From: Modestobacter sp. Leaf380
Lineage (GTDB): Bacteria; Actinomycetota; Actinomycetes; Mycobacteriales; Geodermatophilaceae
DNA length: 64,000 nucleotides
Direction: 5' to 3'
NCBI RefSeq assembly: GCF_001424485.1
Contig: NZ_LMQC01000012.1
Location: 333,012 to 397,011 of the forward strand
Translations under genes and position numbers: made by a program
Notes under the pieces: generated by a model
The model's input: only the letters and a program-made list of their open reading frames with translations
What the model was told of the DNA's origin: nothing
The model's database searches: none
Part shown: positions 1-25,849 of the stretch, in pieces
How the letters are laid out: each line of letters opens with the position of its first letter
Numbering within the stretch: the first letter of the stretch is position 1

Positions 1-2087
1 CCGGCCGCCTGGATGGCGGTGATCGCGATGGTGTTGACGATGTCGCGCACGGTGGCTCCCCGGGAGAGGTCGTTGACCGGCTTGTTGAGGCCCTGCAGCA
101 CCGGTCCGATGGCCACGGCCCCCGCCGAGCGCTGCACCGCCTTGTAGGTGTTGTTGCCGGTGTTGAGGTCCGGGAAGACGAACACGGTGGCCTGCCCGGC
201 GACCGCGGAGCCGGGCAGCTTCGAGGCCCCGATCGCCGGGTCGGCGGCGGCATCGTACTGCATCGGGCCGTCCACGACGAGCTCCGGCGCCCGCTCGCGG
301 ACCAGCGCGGTGGCCTCCCGCACCTTGTCCACGTCGGCGCCGGTGCCCGAGGTGCCGGTCGAGTAGGACAGCATCGCCACCCGCGGCTCGATGCCGAAGC
401 GGGCCGCGGTGGCCGCGGAGGAGATCGCGATGTCGGCCAGCTGGGCGGCGTCCGGGAGCGGGTTGACCGCACAGTCGCCGTAGACCAGCACCCGGTCGGC
501 CAGCGCCATCAGGAAGACGCTGGACACCACCGACACCCCGGGCCTGGTGCGGATGACCTCGAAGGCGGGCCGGATGGTGTGCGCGGTGGTGTGCGCGGCG
601 CCCGACACCATCCCGCCGACCAGGCCGAGCTGCACCATCATCGTGCCGAAGTACGACACGTCGGGGACCACGTCGAGCGCTGCCTCCACGGTCATCCCGC
701 GGTGCGCCCGCAGCCGGGCGTACTCCTCCGCGAACCGGGTCCGCAGCTCCTCGTCGAACGGGCTGACCACCTCGGCACCGGCCAGGTCCAGGCCCAGCTC
801 GGAGGCCCGGGCGCGCACCTTGGCCTCGTCCCCGAGCAGGGTCAGCCGGGCGATCCGGCGGGACAGCACGATCGCCGCCGCGCGCAGCACCCGGTCGTCG
901 TCCCCCTCGGGCAGGACGACGTGCTGGGCCGCGGCGCGGCTGCGCTCGGTGAGCAGGTGCTCGAACATCAGCGGCGTGACGACGGTGGAGCGGCCGACGT
1001 CCAGGCTCTCCAGCAGCCGGCGGGTGTCCACGGCCTCGTCGAAGAGCGCGATGGAGGTCTCGGTCTTGCGGGGGGAGTCCGCGGCGATGAGCCCGCGGGT
1101 GTGGATGACCCGGGCGGTGGTGTCGAAGGTGCCCAGGTCGGTGCGCACGATGGGCAGCGAGGAGCCCAGCCCGGCGATGAGCTGGACGACGGGCTCGGGC
1201 AGGTCGATGCCGCCGTTGAGCAGGATGCCGGTGGGCGAGGGGTAGGTGCCGGCGGCGTGCGCGGTCATCACGCCCAGCACGACGTCGGGCCGGTCGCCGG
1301 GGACGACGACCACGGAGCCCTCGGTGAGCCGGGGCAGCACGTTGACCATCGACATCGCGGCGACGACGACGCCCATCGCCTCCCGGCCCATCAGCTCCGG
1401 GTCCCCGGCGACCAGCTCGCCGTCCACGGCTGCGGCGACCGCGGCGAACGTCGGCGCGATGAGGAACGGCTCCTCCGGGATCGCCCACACCGGGCGCGGG
1501 GTGACGGCGCTGACCGCGGCGACCCCCTCGGCGAGCCGGTCCGGGTCGGCCCGGTTGAGCACGACCGCGACGACGTCGGCGTGCTCGGCAGCCAGCTCGC
1601 GCAGCGCCGGCTCGGCGACGGCGGCCAGGTGCTCGGGCGAGCGTGCCGGGGCCTGGCCCAGGTGCTCGGCCCCGGCCGGGTCCCGCCCGCCCAGGACCAG
1701 CACGACCGGGGTGCCCAGGTTGGCCGCGATCCGGGCGTTGAAGGACAGCTCGGTGGGCGAGCTGACGTCGGTGAAGTCCGAGCCGACCACGACGACGGCG
1801 TCGCAGCGCGCCTGGACCGCCGCGTACCGCTCGACGATGCGGGCCAGGGCGGCATCGCCGTCGCTGTGCACGTCGTCGTAGGTGACGCCGATGGCGTCGT
1901 CGTGCGCGACGTCGGCGGTGGCCCGCTCCAGCAGGGTCGCCAGCACCGGGTCGGTGGCACCGCGGGCGATCGGCCGGAACACCCCGACCCGCTCCACCTC
2001 GCGGGTGAGGGTGGTGAGCAGGCCCAGGGCGACGATCGACTTGCCGGAGTGCCCCTCCACGGAGGCCACGTAGACGCTGCGGGCCAC
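1..2087 (-). CDS. pta: phosphate acetyltransferase (partial, 3' end off window)
   Basis: Converts acetyl-CoA and phosphate to acetyl phosphate and CoA in the cytoplasm, the first step of the Pta-AckA acetate pathway. The 695 visible codons have the long three-part architecture of Pta. There is an N-terminal P-loop-like domain (VASVEGHSGKS near the start), a middle DRTGG-type regulatory region, and a C-terminal PTA_PTB catalytic domain containing SYSTGTSGTGADVDKV, FPDLNTGNNTYK and GPVLQGLNKPVNDLSRG. The frame is still open at base 1, where it reads TIAITAIQAA, very near the usual C-terminus, so only a few residues are missing. The GTG start at 2087 follows a purine-rich ribosome site (GAGGGAGAG). 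An acetate kinase gene would be expected just beyond the left edge, but that is inference only. Confidence 0.96.
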   Translation of the reverse strand, partial: MARSVYVASVEGHSGKSIVALGLLTTLTREVERVGVFRPIARGATDPVLATLLERATADVAHDDAIGVTYDDVHSDGDAALARIVERYAAVQARCDAVVVVGSDFTDVSSPTELSFNARIAANLGTPVVLVLGGRDPAGAEHLGQAPARSPEHLAAVAEPALRELAAEHADVVAVVLNRADPDRLAEGVAAVSAVTPRPVWAIPEEPFLIAPTFAAVAAAVDGELVAGDPELMGREAMGVVVAAMSMVNVLPRLTEGSVVVVPGDRPDVVLGVMTAHAAGTYPSPTGILLNGGIDLPEPVVQLIAGLGSSLPIVRTDLGTFDTTARVIHTRGLIAADSPRKTETSIALFDEAVDTRRLLESLDVGRSTVVTPLMFEHLLTERSRAAAQHVVLPEGDDDRVLRAAAIVLSRRIARLTLLGDEAKVRARASELGLDLAGAEVVSPFDEELRTRFAEEYARLRAHRGMTVEAALDVVPDVSYFGTMMVQLGLVGGMVSGAAHTTAHTIRPAFEVIRTRPGVSVVSSVFLMALADRVLVYGDCAVNPLPDAAQLADIAISSAATAARFGIEPRVAMLSYSTGTSGTGADVDKVREATALVRERAPELVVDGPMQYDAAADPAIGASKLPGSAVAGQATVFVFPDLNTGNNTYKAVQRSAGAVAIGPVLQGLNKPVNDLSRGATVRDIVNTIAITAIQAA

Positions 2088-2202
2088 GGCGGGCTCTCCC
2101 TCGGGGCTGTGCTCTCGGTGCGCGGGAGCACCGGCGAGCGGGGGCGGTGTCGCTGGCGACGCTACCGACCGCCCTGCTCCCCGGCCTGCCGGCAGGGGGA
2201 GG

Positions 2203-2826
2203 TCACAGCCCGTGGTCGGGGGCGGTCATGTCCCCGGTGCCGGGGACGGCGTCGGTCAGGCCGTAGCGCAGGTGCACGGTGCCGCCGGGGCCGGCGGCCG
2301 GGGGCGCGAGCAGCTCGAGGACCGCGGGCACCGCGCCGCCGGCGAACACGGTCTTGCCGGTGCCCAGGGTGATCGGGTGCAGCCACAGGTCCAGCCGGTC
2401 GACCAGCCGCTCCCGGAGCAGGGTCTGCACCAGGTCCAGGCTGCCCACGACCACCGTCTTCTCGTGCCGCTCGCGCAGCTCGCGGACCGCGGCCGGCAGG
2501 TCCGGGCCCAGCTGCCGCGACCCGGCCCAGGACAGGTCCGGGGCGCCCCGGGAGGCGACGTACTTGGGGACCCGGTTGAACAGCCGGGCGAAGTCGCCGT
2601 CCTGGTGCGGCCAGTACGCGGAGAAGACCCCGTGCGTGCGCCGGCCCAGCAGCAGCGCGTCGGTGCCCTCGTAGGCGGCGGCGACCTGCGCCCCGGACAC
2701 CTCGTCGACCAGCGGCGCCTGCCAGCCGCCGAACGGGAACCCGCCGTCGGTGTCCTCCTGCGGACCGCCGGGGCCCTGCGCGACGAGGTCGAGGGTGGCG
2801 AAGAGCTCGAGCTGGACGATCCCCAC
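2203..2826 (-). CDS. dihydrofolate reductase family protein (RibD C-terminal domain)
   Basis: A 207-residue stand-alone RibD C-terminal/DHFR-like domain, a family of NADPH-dependent reductases whose members often lack an assigned substrate. Visible family features are the N-terminal strand MGIVQLELFATLD, the DALLLGRRTH nucleotide-binding segment near residue 60, and VVVGSLDLVQTLL followed by LVDRLDLWLHPITLGTGKTVF toward the C-terminus. The GTG start has an upstream AGGGAG site. It lies upstream of pta on the same strand with about 115 bases between, so it may be its own unit. The exact reaction cannot be told from sequence. Confidence 0.85.
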   Translation of the reverse strand: MGIVQLELFATLDLVAQGPGGPQEDTDGGFPFGGWQAPLVDEVSGAQVAAAYEGTDALLLGRRTHGVFSAYWPHQDGDFARLFNRVPKYVASRGAPDLSWAGSRQLGPDLPAAVRELRERHEKTVVVGSLDLVQTLLRERLVDRLDLWLHPITLGTGKTVFAGGAVPAVLELLAPPAAGPGGTVHLRYGLTDAVPGTGDMTAPDHGL

Positions 2827-2980
2827 GGCGTGCTCCCTGGTGTGCGGTGACGGTGTGCGGTGACGGGTCGAGGACAGGACCCGCCGGCCGGCCGGGACTC
2901 ATCGGGTCCACCCCAGGTCGGACCGCCGGGTCGTCCCCGGGACCGATGTGCGCGCGGCCCGGCGTCCCGAGACTGGGTGC

Positions 2981-3196
2981 ATGGACGACGCGACCAGGCC
3001 CACCGCCCCGCGCGGACCCGAGATCGCCGCCGCGCTGCGCCAGCTGCAGCTGGCCGTCTTCCGCGGCGACGTCGAGCTCGACGCCGCCCGGCTGGAGTCC
3101 TGGCCCCCGGGCGCCCGCCTGGCCCTGGACCAGTGCGCGCGCCGGGCCGCCGCCCGCGGGCACCGGTTCGTCGTCCGCGGGGCGCAGGCGGCCTGA
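2981..3196 (+). CDS. small conserved-looking hypothetical protein
   Basis: A 71-residue ORF starting MDDATRPTAPRG with an amphipathic, alanine/arginine-rich body (AAALRQLQLAVFRGDVELD) and ending FVVRGAQAA. No domain recognised. I chose ATG 2981 over the upstream in-frame GTG at 2948 because the upstream codons read as non-coding. It is divergent from the DHFR-like gene. GAGACT lies 6 bases before the ATG, similar in placement to the leaderless promoters elsewhere in the window. Codon use is consistent with the neighbours, but support is only moderate. Confidence 0.5.
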   Translation: MDDATRPTAPRGPEIAAALRQLQLAVFRGDVELDAARLESWPPGARLALDQCARRAAARGHRFVVRGAQAA

Positions 3197-19031: not shown

Positions 19032-21821
19032 TCAGCCCGAGTTGCGCAGGGCGGTGGCCACGCCGTTGATGGTCAGCTGGATGCAGCGCTTGACCAGCTC
19101 GTCGTCGTCGCCCTCGCGACGACGACGCAGCATCTCCACCTGCAGGTGGTGCAGGGGCTCCAGGTAGGGGAACCGGTTGCGGATCGAGCGGGCCAGCGAG
19201 GGGTTGTCGGCCAGCAGGTGGTCGTCGCCGGTGATCGCCAGCAGCATCCGGCAGGTCCGCTCGTGCTCGGCGGTGATCACGTCGAAGACCCGGTGCCGCA
19301 GCTCCTCGTCGGGCACCAGCGAGGCGTAGCGGGCGGCCAGCTCCAGGTCGGTCTTGGCCAGCACCATGCCCATGTTCGACAGCACCGTGCGCAGGAACGG
19401 CCAGCGGGTGTGCAGCTCCTGCAGCCTGGCCAACCGCACCGGGTCGCCGTCCACCCAGGACTCCAGCGCCGTCCCGGTGCCGAACCAGCCCGGCAGCATG
19501 ATCCGGGCCTGGGACCAGCTGAACACCCACGGGATCGCCCGCAGGTCGCTGATCTTGTCCCCGGCCTTGCGCGAGGGCGGCCGGGAGCCGATGTTCAGCT
19601 CGGCCAGCTCGCGCACCGGCGTCGCCGCCCGGAACCACTCCACGAAGCCCGGCGTCTCGTGCACCAGCGCCCCGTAGGCGGCCTGGGCCCGCGCGGCCAG
19701 GTCGTCGAAGAGCGCGTAGACCTCCTCGGCGTCGCCGTCCAGGCCCTCCAGCGAGAGCAGCGTGGACTCCAGGGTCGCCGCGACCAAGGCCTCCAGGTTG
19801 CGGCGGGCGAGGTCGGGCTCGGCGTACTTGGCCGCGATGACCTCGCCCTGCTCGGTGATCCGCAGCTGCCCGGCCACCGACCCCGGGGGCTGCGCCCGGA
19901 CCGCCTCGTAGCTGGGGCCACCGCCCCGGCCCACGGTGCCGCCGCGGCCGTGGAACAGCCGCAGCCGGACGCCGGCCTGCGCCGCGACCTCGACCAGGGC
20001 CAGCTCGGCCCGGTACAGCGCCCAGTTGGCGGCCAGGTAGCCGCCGTCCTTGTTGGAGTCGGAGTACCCGAGCATGACCTCCTGGGTGCCACCGCGGCCG
20101 TCCACCATCGACCGGTAGAGCGGCTCGGCCAGCATCGCGGCCAGGGTCTCCCCGCCGCCCTGCAGGTCCCCGATGGTCTCGAACAGCGGGGCGATCATGA
20201 TCGGCGAGGCGGGCAGGCCGGCCTCGTCCAGGGTGACCAGGCCGACCTCCTTGAGCAGGACGGCGACCTCCAGCACGTCGGACACCGACTCGCACATGCT
20301 GATCACGTAGTTCGGGATGGCCCGCGGACCCAGCAGCCGGACCTGCTCGGCCGCGGCCACCAGCAGGTCCAGCTCGCCGCGGGCCAGCTCCGACAGCTCG
20401 GCGTCCGCGCGCACCAGCGGGCGGCGCAGCCGCAGCTCACCCAGCAGCACCTCGCGCCGGCCGGCCTCGTCCAGCGCGGTGTAGTCCGGGCAGACGCCGG
20501 CCCAGGCCAGCAGCTCGGCCAGCACCTCCTCGTGCACCGAGCTGTTCTGCCGCATGTCCAGCCCGGACAGGTGGAACCCGAAGACCTCGACGGCGTCGCG
20601 CAGCCGCCGCAGCCGGTCGTCGGCCAGCGCGCCGGCGCCGTGGGTGCGCAGCGAGGCGGCCACCACGTCCAGGTCGGCGATCAGCTGGCCGGGCTCGTCG
20701 TAGGGCTCCAGCTCGACGTCCGGGAGCGGGCCGGGCACGTGGCCGAGCACCCGCACGGAGGTGGCGGCCAGCCGCCGGTAGACCCCTCGCAGGGCGCGGC
20801 GGTAGGGCTCGTCGGCGCGGAACGGCGAGTCGTCCCGGGAGGCGTCGGCCAGCGCCTCCAGCTCCGGTGTCGGGGAGACCAGCCGCTCGGACATGGAGAG
20901 CTCGTCGGCCAGGCAGACCAGCTCGGCCAGGTGGTGGCCCAGCGCCGTCTCCGCGGCCCGGGTCGTCGCCCGGCGCACCGCGGCCGCCGTCACGAACGGG
21001 TTGCCGTCCCGGTCCCCGCCGATCCAGGACCCCGGGCGCAGCATCGGGGTGGGCAGCAGGTCCGCGTCGGGCCAGCGCTGGCGCAGCGCGGCGCGCAGGT
21101 CGGCGTTGATCGCCGGGACGACGGCGAACAGCGACAGGTCGTAGTAGCGCAGCGCCTCGTCGATCTCGTCCTCCAGCCGCAGCCGGGACAGCCGCAGCAG
21201 CGCCGTCTGCCACAGCGTGAGGACCTCGCGCCACAGGTGCGCCGACCAGGCCTGCTCGTCCGGCGCGGTCCCGCGGGTGCGCATCAGCTCGGTCACCTGG
21301 CGCTGCACCTGGGACACCGTGCGCCGCCGGACCTCGGTGGGGTGTGCGGTGACGACCGGGACGACGAGGGCGCCCTCCAGCTCGTGCGCGACGACCGCCG
21401 GGTCCAGGTCGGCGGCGTCCAGCAGCTCGAAGCTGGCCGCCAGCGTGCCCTTCTGCGGCGGGGACCCCTCCCGGCGGTGGTGCCGGCGACGGCGCTCGTG
21501 GTGCACGTCCTCGGCCAGGTTGGCCAGCAGGGAGAAGTGGCTGAACGCGCGGATCACGTGGTTGGCGCTGCGCGCGTCCAGCCCGGCGAGGGTCTCGGCC
21601 AGCCCGCTGCGGTCGACCTCGGAGCGGCGGATCCGGAAGGCCTCGACCCGGGCGGCCTCGACGACGTCGAAGACCTCCTGGCCGGCCTGCTCGCGGACCA
21701 CCTCCCCGAGCACCCGGCCCAGCAGCCGGATGTCCTCCCGGAGCGGGGCGTCACCGGCCCGGTCGTCGTCCTCACCTGCGGCGGGACGGAGGTCGGCGAC
21801 GTCCACGGTGGCTTCAGACAC
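19032..21821 (-). CDS. ppc: phosphoenolpyruvate carboxylase
   Basis: Anaplerotic enzyme making oxaloacetate from PEP and bicarbonate. 929 residues from GTG 21821. Catalytic and signature motifs present: [14 protein letters not shown] with the essential His, [52 protein letters not shown], and the hydrophobic active-site lid region [20 protein letters not shown]. The C-terminus ends ALRNSG, whereas most Ppc proteins end in NTG, a conservative Thr to Ser change. The start has CAGGAT 6 bases upstream, suggesting a leaderless mRNA. It is divergent from the SMP-30 gene with only 55 bases between. Confidence 0.97.
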
Positions 21822-21833
21822 GGGCGCATCCTG
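21822..21833 (-). promoter_or_regulatory. leaderless promoter for ppc
   Basis: CAGGAT on the minus strand (21828-21833), GCGCCC, then GTG 21821. The 12-base block is identical to that before fprA. Confidence 0.42.
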
Positions 21834-21876
21834 CCTGGTGGGTGTGACGCGCACGTGTCCCGGGGAGGATGAGCGG

Positions 21877-22803
21877 GTGCTGACGCTCCCCGCCGACCCC
21901 GTGACGACGCTCGACCCGGCCGTGCACGGCGAGGGCCCCACGTGGGACGCCGACCGGCAGGAGCTGCTGTGGGTGGACATCACCCGCGGGCAGGTCCGGC
22001 GCGCGACGGCGTCCGCCGAGGGTGCACTCGCCGAGGTCGGCGTGCACCGCGGCGGGGACGCCGTGGGCGTCGTCGTCCCGGCTGCCGACGGCGGCTGGCT
22101 GCTGGGCGCCGACGGTGGGTTCACCCACCTGTCCCCCACCGGCGGGGCCACCGTGCTGGTCGAGCTGGCTGCCGAGGGCCCGGCCGCGAACACCCGGATG
22201 AACGACGGCGCCGTCGACCCGGCCGGCCGGTTCCTCGCCGGCACGATGGCCTTCGACGAGTCCCCGGGCGCGGGCTCGCTGTACCGGGTGGACCTCGACG
22301 GCAGCGTGCACACCGTGCTGCGCGACCTGACCGTCAGCAACGGCATCGAGTGGACCGCCGACGGCCGCACCGTCTTCCTCGCCGACTCCGGGGCCGCCAC
22401 GGTGACCGCGTACCCCTACGACGTCGCGACCGGGGAGTTCGGCGAGGGCCGGGTCGTGATCGACCTGTCCGACGACGACGCCGGCGCCCCCGACGGGCTG
22501 ACCGTCGACGACGAGGACCACCTCTGGGTCGCCGTCTGGGGCGGCGGGCAGGTCCGCCGGTACACCCCCGCCGGCGAACAGGTCGCCGTCGTGACCGTGC
22601 CGGCGGCGAACACCTCGAGCTGCGCCTTCGCCGGCCCCGCCCGGGACCTGCTGGTCATCAGCACCTCGACCCAGGGCCTCACCGACGCCGACCGCGCAGC
22701 CCAGCCCGACGCCGGGCGGCTCTTCACCGCCCGCCCCGGCGTCACCGGCCGCGCCGCGGGTGTCTACCGCGGCCCGACCGACGTCCTCCGCGAGGTGCGC
22801 TGA
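21877..22803 (+). CDS. SMP-30/gluconolactonase/LRE family protein
   Basis: 308-residue six-bladed beta-propeller lactonase-like protein. [18 protein letters not shown] carries the conserved metal-binding Glu at the N-terminus, [16 protein letters not shown] gives the Asn ligand region, [18 protein letters not shown] the second Asn, and [20 protein letters not shown] the Asp. The family hydrolyses sugar lactones or organophosphates with Ca or Zn; a gluconolactonase-like sugar-oxidation role is likely but unproven. The GTG start has GGGGAGG upstream. A long palindrome follows 8 bases after the stop. Confidence 0.9.
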
Positions 22804-22811
22804 CCCGCCCT

Positions 22812-22870
22812 GGCATGGGATCCCTCGCATACCGGTGGGCTCGCCACCCGTATGCAGGGGATCCCATGCC
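22812..22870. repeat. palindromic element copy 1 (upstream of the DUF559 gene)
   Basis: Inverted repeat with outer arms GGCATGGGATCCC / complement (perfect), continuing as GCATAC and GGTGG matches with small mismatches, about 28 bases per arm and a very short loop. It starts 8 bases after the SMP-30 stop. The second copy is at 23903. Read alone it could be a terminator; the near identity of the two copies suggests a REP-like or mobile family. Confidence 0.75.
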
Positions 22871-22969
22871 GGAGCGGGTGGTGGCTCCTTCGACCCCACG
22901 GCTGTGGAGAACGGCGCTCGTCCACAGGGGCGTCGGCGCTGCGGGGCTCGCCTGGCCACGATGCGGCGC

Positions 22970-23894
22970 ATGGAGTGGAGACCGGTCATCCGTGCGGCCC
23001 TGGAACGAAGCGGGGGCATCGTCACCCGCAGTGAACTGCTGGCGGTCGTCCCCCGCGAGGTCGTCGACGCCGCGCTGCGGCTGCGGTGGCTGGTCAGGCA
23101 CCTGCCGCACACCTACCTCGCACCCGAGACGGCCCCGACGGACGACGTCCGGGCGCGGGCGGCCCTGCGACACCTGGGGCCGGGGGCGGCGCTCAGTCAC
23201 ACGACCGCGCTCAACTGGCACCTGCGACGCCCCTTGCCGCTGCCCCTGAGAGCCACGATCGACCACGGGCGACGGCTCCACGGGGCCCCGGCGCTGGTGG
23301 TCCACCGTCGCCTGGACTTCGCCACCACGGCTCCCCAGTGCCAGGAGGTGCGGGGGGGTGCTGGTCACCGAACCGGCCCGGTCCCTCGTGGATGCCTGGC
23401 CGCTCCTGCCCCGTCCCGATCGACGTCCGGCCGCGATCGAGGTCGTCCGCACGGGACTCACCACCCCGACCCTGTTGGGGACGGCGTTCGCCCAACGGCC
23501 CAACGTCGCGGGTCGGCGTGAGCTGTCGACCACCATCGCCCTGCTGCGCGACGGCGTGCGCAGCGAGCTGGAGGCCCTGGGCGTCCTCACGGTGTTCGAC
23601 CACCCCGACCTCCCCAGGAGCACGGGGCAGAAGCGGGTCGATGTCGCGGGCCGGCACTTCTACCTGGACCGGTGCTGGGAGGAGGCGATGCTGGCAGTCG
23701 AGCTGGACGGCAAGGACCACCACACCTCACCGGTGGACCGGGCGCGCGACCTGGAGCGTGACCGGCTCCTGGCCACTCGCGGCTGGCTCGTCCTCCGCTT
23801 CACCTACGCCGACGTCGTCCGGGACCCCGCTGGCGTCCGTCGCACGGTGCTCGCCGTGCACCGCCAACGGATGACCCGATCGCAGTCCGCCTGA
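22970..23894 (+). pseudogene. AbiEi-like / DUF559 protein, frameshifted in a G7 tract
   Basis: The first frame (ATG 22970, or 22961 for MRRMEW) gives a winged-helix region RSGGIVTRSELLAVVPREVV, RLRWLVRHLPHTYL and GAALSHTTALNWHL, as in AbiEi-type antitoxin_4 proteins. At 23352-23358, CGGGGGGG shifts the frame. Reading six G instead of seven joins QEVRG to VLVTEPARSLVDAWPLL and continues to the stop at 23894. The C-terminus AVELDGKDHHTSPVDRARDL, ERDRLLATRGWLVLRFTYAD is a DUF559/Vsr-like nuclease fold (restriction-endonuclease-like). Function unknown; such proteins are common in this lineage. As written, the product would be truncated; slippage in the G tract or sequencing error could restore it. 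Near-identical palindromes flank the gene. Confidence 0.75.
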
Positions 23895-23902
23895 GCCGTC
23901 TC

Positions 23903-23961
23903 GGCATGGGATCCCCCGCATACGGCAGATGCGTCCACCGATATGCGGGGGATCCCATGCC
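23903..23961. repeat. palindromic element copy 2 (downstream of the DUF559 gene)
   Basis: Perfect 20-base arms (23903-23922 and 23942-23961), beginning GGCATGGGATCCC and ending CCGCATA, with a 19-base loop. It starts 8 bases after the DUF559 gene stop, the same spacing copy 1 has after the SMP-30 stop. It lies between convergent genes and may also act as a terminator. Confidence 0.78.
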
Positions 23962-23968
23962 AGGGCGG

Positions 23969-24841
23969 TCAGTTGATCGGGGAGCCGCCCGTCACGCCGA
24001 TGACCTCGCCGCTGGTGAAGCTGGCGTCCTCGCTGGCCAGGTAGACGTAGGCGCCGGCCAGCTCGGCCGGCTGGGCGGCCCGCTGGAGCGGCGCTGCCTT
24101 GCCGAAGCCCTCGACCTGGTCCTCGGGCATGGTCGCCGGGATGAGGGGCGTCCACACCGGGCCGGGGGCCACGCAGTTGACCCGCACCCCGACCTGGGCG
24201 AACTCGTCGGCCATCGACGTCGTCAGGTTGACCAGCGCGGCCTTGGTGGCGGCGTAGGCGGCCAGCGCCGGGGACGGCGTGAAGGCCTGCACCGAGCTGG
24301 TCACGATCACCGAGGAGCCGGGCTCCAGCTCGGGCTTGGCGGCCTGCAGCAGCCAGAAGAACGCGTAGACGTTGGTCCGGAAGGTGCGGTCGATCTCCGC
24401 GGTGGAGAACTCCAGCACGTCGGACACCACGTTCTGGAACGCCGCGTTGTGCACCAGCAGGTCGATGCCGCCCAGGCCCTCGACTGTCTGCGCGACCAGG
24501 CCCTTGGCGACGGTCTCCTCGGAGATGTCGCCGGGCAGCAGCACCGCCGTCCGGCCGGCGTCGCGGACCAGCCGGGCGGTCTCCTCGGCGTCGTCGTGCT
24601 CGGAGAGGTAGGAGATCGCCACGTCGGCGCCCTCCCGGGCGTAGGCGATCGCCACGGCCCGGCCGATGCCGGAGTCGGCGCCGGTGATCAGCGCCCGACG
24701 GCCGGCGAGCCGGCCGGAGCCGCGGTAGGAGTCCTCGCCGTGGTCGGGCTGCGGGGTGAGCTCCGCCGTCCGGCCGGGGTGCTCGACCTGCAGGGCCGGG
24801 ATGTCGGCGGTGTGCTTGGTGCGGGGGTCGACGAGGCTCAT
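23969..24841 (-). CDS. SDR family oxidoreductase (YhdF/GSP39-like)
   Basis: 290-residue classical short-chain dehydrogenase with an N-terminal 50-residue extension (DPRTKHTADIPALQVEHPG) typical of general-stress-protein-39-like SDRs. Cofactor motif RALITGADSGIGRAVA, structural VHNAAF, catalytic Ser in SSVIVTSSVQAF, and YAATKAAL as YxxxK. The substrate is unknown. It overlaps the upstream LLM oxidoreductase by ATGA, so the two are translated together. Confidence 0.92.
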   Translation of the reverse strand: MSLVDPRTKHTADIPALQVEHPGRTAELTPQPDHGEDSYRGSGRLAGRRALITGADSGIGRAVAIAYAREGADVAISYLSEHDDAEETARLVRDAGRTAVLLPGDISEETVAKGLVAQTVEGLGGIDLLVHNAAFQNVVSDVLEFSTAEIDRTFRTNVYAFFWLLQAAKPELEPGSSVIVTSSVQAFTPSPALAAYAATKAALVNLTTSMADEFAQVGVRVNCVAPGPVWTPLIPATMPEDQVEGFGKAAPLQRAAQPAELAGAYVYLASEDASFTSGEVIGVTGGSPIN

Positions 24842-25818
24842 GCGCCGAACGCCTCCCGCCAGGCCGGCATCAGCTCGCGCCGGGTCCACTCCAGGTAGGG
24901 CTGTTGCTGGTCACCGCCGATCTGCACCAGGGCCAGGTGGGTGTAGCCGGCGTCGGCGTAGGCCTGCGCCGCCTCGATCACCGCGCCCACGTCGCTGCCG
25001 CAGGGGATGGACTCCGCGACGTCGGACTCCCGGACGAACTGGCTGGCGGCCTCGAAGCCCGCCGTCCCGGGGAGGTCGGCGTTGACCTTCCAGCCCAGCC
25101 CGAACCAGCGGAAGAGCTCGTGCGCGCGGGTGACCGCGGCGGCCTGGTCGGTGTCGTAGCTGATCGGCATCTGGCCGACCCGGTTCTTGCCCGCGCCGCC
25201 GGCGGCGTCGAACATCTCGCCGAGCTCGGGCCTGGGCTCGGTGCCGATCATGACGTCGGCGTACTCCCCGGCCAGCTCGCAGCTCTTCTTCCCCGACACG
25301 GCGATGCCGATCGGCACGCCGCCCTCGGGCAGGTCCCAGATCTTGGCGCCGTCGGCGTGGAAGTGCTCGCCGTGGAAGGTGGTGTAGCCGTCCCCGGCGA
25401 GCAGCTCCTTGATCAGCTGCACCGCCTCGGTGAACATCTCCTGCCGCACGGCGACGGCCGGCCAGCCCTCCCCGGCGACGTGCTCGTTGAGGTTCTCCCC
25501 CGACCCCAGGCCCAGGGTGAACCGGCCGTCGGCCAGCAGCTGCAGCGTGGCCGCCTGCTGCGCGACGACGACCGGCCGGTACCGCAGGATCGGCGAGGTC
25601 ACGTACGTCATCAGGTCGATCCGGCTGGTGGCGTGGGCGGCCGCGCCGAGGGTGACCCAGGCGTTCGGGGCGTGGCCCATGGAGTCCAGCCACGGCGAGA
25701 AGTGGTCGCTGCACACCGCGAAGTCGAAGCCGACCTCCTCGGCGCCGACGACGTGCGAGACGAGGTCCTTCGGACCCGCCTGCTCGGTCATCATCGTGTA
25801 GCCCAGCTGCATGCTCAT
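24838..25818 (-). CDS. LLM class F420-dependent oxidoreductase
   Basis: 326 residues. A TIM-barrel luciferase-like fold using deazaflavin F420, resembling the TIGR03557/FGD-like group: MQLGYTMMTEQAGPKDLV, GFDFAVCSDHFSPWLDSMGH, RYRPVVVAQQAATLQLLADG and RFTLGLGSGENLNEHVAG, and AVSGKKSCELAGEYADVMIG. The likely role is redox of a small aldehyde or sugar-phosphate-like substrate, not assignable here. ATG 25818 gives the normal N-terminus. It is operonic with the downstream SDR. Confidence 0.9.
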   Translation of the reverse strand: MSMQLGYTMMTEQAGPKDLVSHVVGAEEVGFDFAVCSDHFSPWLDSMGHAPNAWVTLGAAAHATSRIDLMTYVTSPILRYRPVVVAQQAATLQLLADGRFTLGLGSGENLNEHVAGEGWPAVAVRQEMFTEAVQLIKELLAGDGYTTFHGEHFHADGAKIWDLPEGGVPIGIAVSGKKSCELAGEYADVMIGTEPRPELGEMFDAAGGAGKNRVGQMPISYDTDQAAAVTRAHELFRWFGLGWKVNADLPGTAGFEAASQFVRESDVAESIPCGSDVGAVIEAAQAYADAGYTHLALVQIGGDQQQPYLEWTRRELMPAWREAFGA

Positions 25819-25849
25819 GGCCGCAGCGCTACCCCGCCGCGGGGGGAGG

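Follow-up and report, generated by a model that had tools for sequence, protein, structure and literature searches.

DUF559 is listed in Pfam as a protein family of unknown function. The palindromes called REPs, which belong with RAYT/TnpA-REP enzymes in REPtrons, are described in PMC8266576 as stem-loops of 20 to 50 nt that are preceded by GTAG and number about six hundred in E. coli. According to PMC3943268, the homing endonuclease I-Bth0305I dimerizes on a target of nearly 60 bp. The AbiEi-type protein Rv2827c, as reported in PMC7319586, binds 23-bp repeats with a 13-bp gap, which amounts to 59 bp by our own addition.

The locus described here lies in the window, by which we mean the whole 64,000-nt stretch of DNA that was analyzed (positions 333012 to 397011 of contig C12 in genome G000, which is 4.76 Mb long). 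A first-pass annotation of this DNA had claimed that two matching palindromes flank one gene, each beginning 8 nt past a stop codon. Indeed, a search of the window finds exact occurrences of GGCATGGGATCCC and of its complement at 22812/22870 and 23903/23961, the two palindromes are the first and third entries in its list of inverted repeats with arms at most 60 bp apart, and the stop codons 8 nt before them end at 22803 and 23894. The bracketed gene encodes a DUF559 protein. Among open-access articles, we found no paper linking DUF559 to such palindromes or to AbiEi, which agrees with the same annotation's view that the association is undescribed. The features of the locus are as follows.

21877..22803, plus strand: left flanking gene, putative SMP-30 (the name given in the first-pass annotation), which borders the insertion site
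22812..22870, no strand: upstream site, a 59-bp palindrome with arms at 22812-22831 and 22851-22870 and a variable center
22970..23357, plus strand: DUF559 gene, N-terminal part, a predicted AbiEi-like winged-helix DNA-binding region in one frame up to the frameshift
23358..23894, plus strand: DUF559 gene, C-terminal part, a predicted Vsr/EDxHD-type nuclease domain in the other reading frame
23903..23961, no strand: downstream site, a 59-bp palindrome with arms at 23903-23922 and 23942-23961
23969..24841, minus strand: right flanking gene, short-chain dehydrogenase-like by eye, the anchor for comparing occupied and empty sites
25819..25849, no strand: gap of 31 bp two genes further on, empty here and occupied by a unit in G082 (K. 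taihuensis) and G083 (K. terrae)

The upstream palindrome begins 158 nt before the likely DUF559 start codon (22970, picked by comparison with relatives). This geometry is the same as in 13 related genes, here called clade A, where a palindrome starts 140 to 185 nt upstream of the start codon in 13/13 cases. A gap of 7 nt separates the far end of the downstream palindrome from the stop codon of the convergent gene. Twelve of the 13 clade-A genes have a counterpart of this palindrome whose start falls no more than 1 nt before or 30 nt after the end of the stop codon. A frameshift in a run of G residues near 23350, a point absent from the first-pass annotation, splits the DUF559 frame into two ORFs; intact relatives of the gene are present in G082 and G083. 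The C-terminal part matches Pfam MTES_1575 (E 2.6e-10) and DUF559 (E 7e-10), was also recovered by the genome scan, and by eye contains the conserved E, D, E, H and D residues. The AbiEi-like assignment of the N-terminal part is carried over from relatives.

With E values up to 0.1 allowed, all 25 aligned DUF559 proteins match PF04480, 22 match MTES_1575 and 24 match one PADLOC model for AbiEi; Pfam AbiEi_4 is matched weakly by six (best E 0.0027). Residues E201, D233, E244, H251 and D260 (L108 numbering) are invariant in 25/25. A profile search of solved structures returned 3hrl (2.5e-9) and the mobile-intron protein 3r3p (3e-5). The AlphaFold2 model of the G083 relative (mean pLDDT 91.5) matches the AbiEi antitoxin 6y8q (E 3.6e-6) and Rv2827c (1zel, E 1.5e-5) in Foldseek, as well as the catalytic domain of I-Bth0305I (3r3p; E 0.011, probability 1.00, TM 0.75 on the target). 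From these profiles and this model, the DUF559 protein is predicted to be an AbiEi-like winged-helix module joined to a domain of the Vsr/EDxHD homing-endonuclease type.

The palindromes belong to a family that extends well beyond the two window sites, as a search of the host genome with the 13-mer common to the window pair established. The 13-mer occurs 39 times (20 forward, 19 reverse; none for a reversed-pattern control), and a 20-mer search with up to three mismatches finds both arms of the same 22 elements plus one stray match. All 22 palindromes are exactly 59 bp long, where totals of 45 to 80 bp were allowed. Their mean pairwise identity is 0.92 over 22 arm positions, and that of the 13-nt center is 0.49 (0.38 when shuffled). 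A weakly conserved border, CGCC-like before and GGGCG-like after the element, is complementary on both sides, as if the arms continued into it. Center identity is high in a few pairs (at least 0.75 in 9 of 231, with a maximum of 0.92), and these may have been copied recently. The centers of most solo sites are not alike, which argues that most solo sites are not fresh copies. The suggestion that the palindromes as a whole stem from a recent burst is not supported by this comparison, nor by the fact that several of their positions are common between species.

Sixteen of the 22 own sites start at most 20 bp past a stop codon, a count that leaves out L052, whose element lies within a predicted ORF. 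Eight sites lie between convergent genes, 11 between tandem and three between divergent genes. Twenty copies are at least 8 kb from all seven DUF559 matches in the genome or are located on DUF559-free contigs, and among those seven matches only the one in the window is near these sites, the next nearest being 8 kb off. This distribution lends no support to one part of the REP-RAYT-like idea in the first-pass annotation, namely that the nuclease spreads the palindromes, and neither do the several solo sites whose positions are conserved between species; the other part, a physical tie between nuclease and palindrome, stands. A tie of the solo sites to a single gene function was also considered and is rejected, because 19 of the 20 own sites outside the window adjoin a total of 20 proteins, whose best Pfam families are 20 different ones. 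A plasmid or phage origin is likewise rejected, as a tblastn search with the intact DUF559 relative of G083 gave no match in 72,556 plasmid or 50,697 phage records.

Single-strand folding of three elements, on both strands, is far above that of shuffled sequences (z of -7.5 to -8.5). The two arms, on the other hand, do not covary beyond shuffles, with paired cells at 91.9% vs 92.2%. This finding suggests that selection acts on the arm sequence and not on base pairing, and a reading of the palindromes as RNA structures is rejected on this ground and on the absence of any Rfam match at the gathering threshold within 21800 to 25000. The 30-nt flanks of the 22 copies contain no T run, and the elements thus lack the mark of intrinsic terminators; a terminator scan gave no match at the window elements, with a loop limit of 3 to 8 that would miss larger loops. 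No GTAG tag accompanies any of the 22 copies.

Two other places in the genome deserve mention. At L055 (3415 to 4690), two palindromes with similar centers (0.85) lie 1.2 kb apart and enclose only small, poorly scoring membrane-like ORFs; this pair is possibly a decayed unit. At L052 (3993 to 4051), a palindrome lies within the 3′ part of a predicted ORF for a 2Fe-2S thioredoxin-like protein, and several changes are seen in its arms, in one case affecting both partners of a pair.

The bracketing of DUF559 genes by matched sites recurs throughout the genus Klenkia, where 60 DUF559 matches are present across nine genomes. For each gene, we determined the longest word common to both 260-bp flanks, using other genes of the same loci as controls. 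A shared word of at least 14 nt was found for 27 of 55 DUF559 genes vs 1 of 73 controls (Fisher p 2e-11), with 28 of the 55 below the threshold; five of the 60 matches were left out because a flank was cut or the gene was not called. The window gene itself fails this test, since the frameshift misplaces its start. Different DUF559 lineages have different palindrome spellings, so that the tie of a nuclease-fold gene family to mutually matched palindromes, suspected at one locus, is seen repeatedly and in different spellings. Within the genome of the window, a second bracketed DUF559 gene (C12:286169, L156), about 70 kb from the window unit, lies between 60-bp palindromes of another spelling (GGCAAAGGAAGCTCTGCACCCCC type). 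The arm spacing is usually equal on both sides of a gene: in lineages with both arms found on both sides, the values are 34/34, 30/30, 42/42, 49/49, 56/56 and 57/57, with 51/50 in one. For many lineages a single downstream arm was found.

The same arrangement is found in another order. In a set dominated by Kribbella (Propionibacteriales; Klenkia belongs to Geodermatophilales), flanks share a word of at least 14 nt in 17 of 22 loci vs 1 of 59 controls. This set, L226 to L247, comprises 20 loci labelled Kribbella and two labelled Streptomyces sp. SID13031, and the scan of named genomes gave 35 loci. One flank word of the set, with at most one mismatch, is present in 8 of 10 genomes at 7 to 30 copies each, with many inverted pairs that are usually 75 to 77 bp apart (exceptions 65 and 87). 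Among 18 elements read with 86 to 102 bp allowed, 15 are 94 bp and three are 95 bp long, and their arms are alike around centers of about 56 nt that are mostly unlike. In a class-wide sample, DUF559 was found in 49 of 118 genomes; 7 of 28 DUF559 genes pass the flank-word test and 21 fail it, with only three control genes and 1 of 29 loci skipped.

Palindrome pairs also enclose other genes. A NERD (nuclease-related domain) gene (L125 in G076, 1082 to 2027) lies between palindromes of two spellings (59 and 61 bp), and an alpha/beta hydrolase gene (L136 in G009, 1970 to 3032) is enclosed by two palindromes. Where the first L136 palindrome lies, palindromes are also present in G004 as well as in two genomes of another genus, G109 and G110.

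We compared the spelling of the palindromes with the sequence of the protein in the 13 clade-A genes. Arm identity correlates with the identity of residues 1 to 56 (r 0.63) and 57 to 190 (r 0.71), vs 0.38 for the nuclease part. With relatedness controlled only via the nuclease domain, the partial correlations are 0.65 for residues 1 to 56 and 0.76 for residues 57 to 190 (permutation p 0.0002); for the nuclease part, given residues 1 to 56, the value is -0.43. Two choices of nine lineages gave partial r of 0.58 to 0.70 (p <= 0.0006). The spelling of the sites follows the predicted DNA-binding part of the protein.

Comparison of loci in relatives, which the first-pass annotation had put forward as a check, reveals that the site-gene-site unit occupies different places in related species. 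At the place of the window unit, G078 has one solo palindrome, in its own spelling, adjoining a homologue (76% identity) of the left flanking gene, and G079, G081 and G083 have solo palindromes of another spelling family. In G076, G077 and G082 there is another left neighbor and no palindrome, and in G080 the right neighbor was not found there. At the second place, two genes on, G082 and G083 contain a palindrome-DUF559-palindrome unit, in G082 with the same palindrome sequence on both sides. The same second place is empty, with 31 to 106 bp and no palindrome, in the genome of the window and in G076, G077, G078, G079, G080 and G081. Even the sisters G082 and G076 (0.966 identity) differ in this unit. 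By eye, no target-site duplication or clean insertion boundary is readable at the second place. The DUF559 genes of both places form one lineage in the tree (support 0.999). Taken together, these comparisons imply that the unit changed place or was gained and lost.

A covariance model built from the 22 own copies finds matches, under strict filters and with no more than 44 candidates scored in each genome, in 18 of the 112 genomes of the family, that of the window among them. The relative loci number 55, from 15 of the 17 matched relatives; 48 contributed elements and seven gave none. Under a GGC...GCC length rule allowing 59 to 62 bp, which leaves other palindromes of the relatives out, the resulting 74 elements, of which 22 are own and 52 come from relatives, measure 59 bp (38 elements), 60 bp (13) or 61 bp (23). 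The exact 13-mer occurs once in 12 of the 112 genomes. The cases in G079 and G080 lie in palindromes that the model also detected, and the rest, which look like chance, were left unused.

Several of these palindromes lie at orthologous places, a comparison that covers the places among the model matches listed and hence a subset of the 22 own sites. Arm identity between 13 within-genus orthologous site pairs is 0.66 to 0.75 in 11 and 0.89 in two, and pairs that include G109 or G110, of another genus, have 0.66 to 0.77. The close species G009 and G004 share 0.93 to 0.98 at three orthologous sites. Non-orthologous sites within one genome have median identities of 0.91 to 0.95 in G000, G078, G079 and G077, with lower medians in the multi-spelling genomes G083 (0.66 to 0.86) and G082 (0.73). 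Because orthologous sites diverge while sites of the same genome are alike, we conclude that the positions are inherited while the spelling changes in concert. Spellings also occur apart from a bracketed gene: in G078, 11 sites share a spelling that is found around none of the nine DUF559 matches there.

G078 and G083 share two spelling families, and their related DUF559 genes L159 and L109, whose orthology was judged on sequence only, are bracketed by different ones. In both genomes alike, one spelling family has no bracketed DUF559 gene that we found. The arm itself is nearly palindromic in several spellings, for example GGCATGGGATCCCATGCC in G109 and GCATAGGAACCTATGC in G009, and an element with such arms may hold four half-sites.

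The bracket, the fixed spacing and the covariation with the DNA-binding part together point to a cognate relation between site and protein. We judge, with a probability of roughly 0.6, that the nuclease has its DNA recognition sites in the palindromes around its gene, in a REPtron-like arrangement built around an unrelated enzyme. The bracket, its spacing, the matching spelling, the dispersal and the contrast of occupied with empty loci can be read directly from the genomes; from them we infer binding, cutting and movement by the DUF559 nuclease, and use of the sites by the host. Two protomers would bind the two inverted arms of about 20 to 24 nt at a distance fixed for each lineage, and the nuclease domains would act in the less conserved spacer. 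The site-gene-site arrangement would then be a mobile unit, moved by cutting at the sites and recombination between identical sites, whereby the gene could leave one site and enter another, turning a solo palindrome into palindrome-gene-palindrome and the reverse. Solo sites would be landing places or scars, some of which persist where no bracketed nuclease gene of that spelling was found.

Several observations strain this cognate-site model: six relatives and the genome of the window lack a palindrome at the second insertion place; intact sites flank the gene, unlike the self-allele protection of classical homing genes; the centers of most solo sites are unlike; 28 of 55 Klenkia genes and 21 of 28 in the class-wide sample fail the flank-word test; and palindrome pairs enclose the NERD gene, the hydrolase gene and the membrane-like ORFs as well. 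A purely selfish version is strained further, as several solo sites stay in place and a spelling can persist with no gene bracketed by it (the 11 sites in G078). The model does not explain why solo sites hold position in different species as their spelling shifts jointly. This pattern suggests an additional use to the host, either of bound sites or of the hairpins at gene ends, and the sites may have a dual role, with those at gene ends used by the host.

Host service could also be the whole of the matter. The DUF559 protein, related to AbiEi-type antitoxins, would be a host regulator or insulator whose upstream site is an autoregulatory operator; solo and downstream sites would be bound bidirectional terminators or roadblocks at gene ends, and the nuclease domain would serve housekeeping or defense. 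AbiEi proteins are indeed reported to autoregulate via inverted repeats (PMC7319586), yet autoregulation leaves the copy just past the nuclease's own stop (12/13 clade-A genes) unexplained. The location of 16/22 own sites at most 20 bp past a stop, the convergent (8/22) and divergent (3/22) contexts and the strong hairpins on both strands would suit terminators, but the elements are followed by no T run and went unreported in the terminator scan, and a terminator needs no fixed length with a variable center. Several sites do hold their position across species and genera; the unit, however, differs in position between close species. We consider this regulatory reading unlikely, if the most serious of the rivals.

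Very little probability attaches to the view that an unrelated transposase spreads the sites as REP-like repeats and that DUF559 genes often ride along with them. The palindromes do resemble REPs in being extragenic, dispersed and located mostly at the 3′ ends of genes, the NERD and hydrolase genes are bracketed as well, and the centers of one own solo-site pair are nearly identical (0.92). This view does not account for spellings that track the DNA-binding part of the DUF559 protein itself. A RAYT in particular is an unlikely spreader, as Y1_Tnp matches are absent from all nine genus genomes, whereas the same search was positive in 5 of 14 control genomes. The alternative of ordinary terminators, duplicated as proposed at the outset or convergent, that lie near DUF559 genes by chance can hardly be maintained, although most sites do follow stop codons. 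The identical length of 22/22 own copies and the different spellings at orthologous positions are at odds with it, the flank-match counts vs controls in two orders already contradict chance, and duplicated terminators explain neither the DUF559 tie nor the covariation with the DNA-binding part of the protein.

From sequence alone, many DUF559 proteins gain a predicted target, of about 60 bp in the studied clade, making their activity directly testable. If confirmed, they would join RAYT, to which they are unrelated, as a second family of enzymes with a physical tie to dispersed palindromes of their own. The natural pairs of spelling and protein would be data at hand from which to derive a DNA-recognition code for AbiEi-type winged helices, and a source of new long-site nucleases. 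A further puzzle is why dispersed sites change in concert while their positions stay fixed. More tentatively, and short of an even chance in our estimation, these genes may represent a widespread actinobacterial class in which AbiEi-EDxHD nucleases each have a private palindromic address of fixed spacing that brackets the gene and is scattered at gene ends, nuclease and addresses changing spelling together by concerted evolution at conserved positions. Such a class would be the nuclease equivalent of REP/RAYT, and its specificity code could be read from sequence.

Compared with REPtrons, the locus is alike in that the gene of a DNA-processing enzyme sits among palindromes of one family that are also dispersed extragenically, and copies of the dispersed palindrome flank the enzyme gene (27/55 in the genus by the flank-word test). 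It differs in its enzyme, which is predicted to be an AbiEi-EDxHD nuclease and not a Y1 HUH transposase; in its sites, which have two long arms at a fixed distance around a variable spacer and no GTAG tag; and in copy number, with 22 in this genome vs the about six hundred given for E. coli in PMC8266576. With I-Bth0305I and the EDxHD homing endonucleases it shares a similar catalytic domain (3r3p profile, E 3e-5) and a long target, nearly 60 bp and bound by a dimer in the case reported in PMC3943268. Here, however, the gene is free-standing and chromosomal in bacteria, has an AbiEi-like DNA-binding part and has intact sites on both sides, with many sites per genome. Classical homing, in which a gene interrupts its own site, does not fit, as both flanking palindromes are whole, if these are the recognition sites. 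The N-terminal and middle fold is that of AbiEi antitoxins of the AbiE type IV toxin-antitoxin system (6y8q, 1zel), whose operators, as PMC7319586 describes for Rv2827c, consist of 23-bp repeats in inverted orientation around a gap of set length, which we add up to 59 bp; in contrast to these, the module here is predicted to be fused to a nuclease, and its sites also follow the gene and occur at many other gene ends. The nuclease domain itself belongs to the DUF559 and REase_MTES_1575 families (Pfam PF04480, PF18741).
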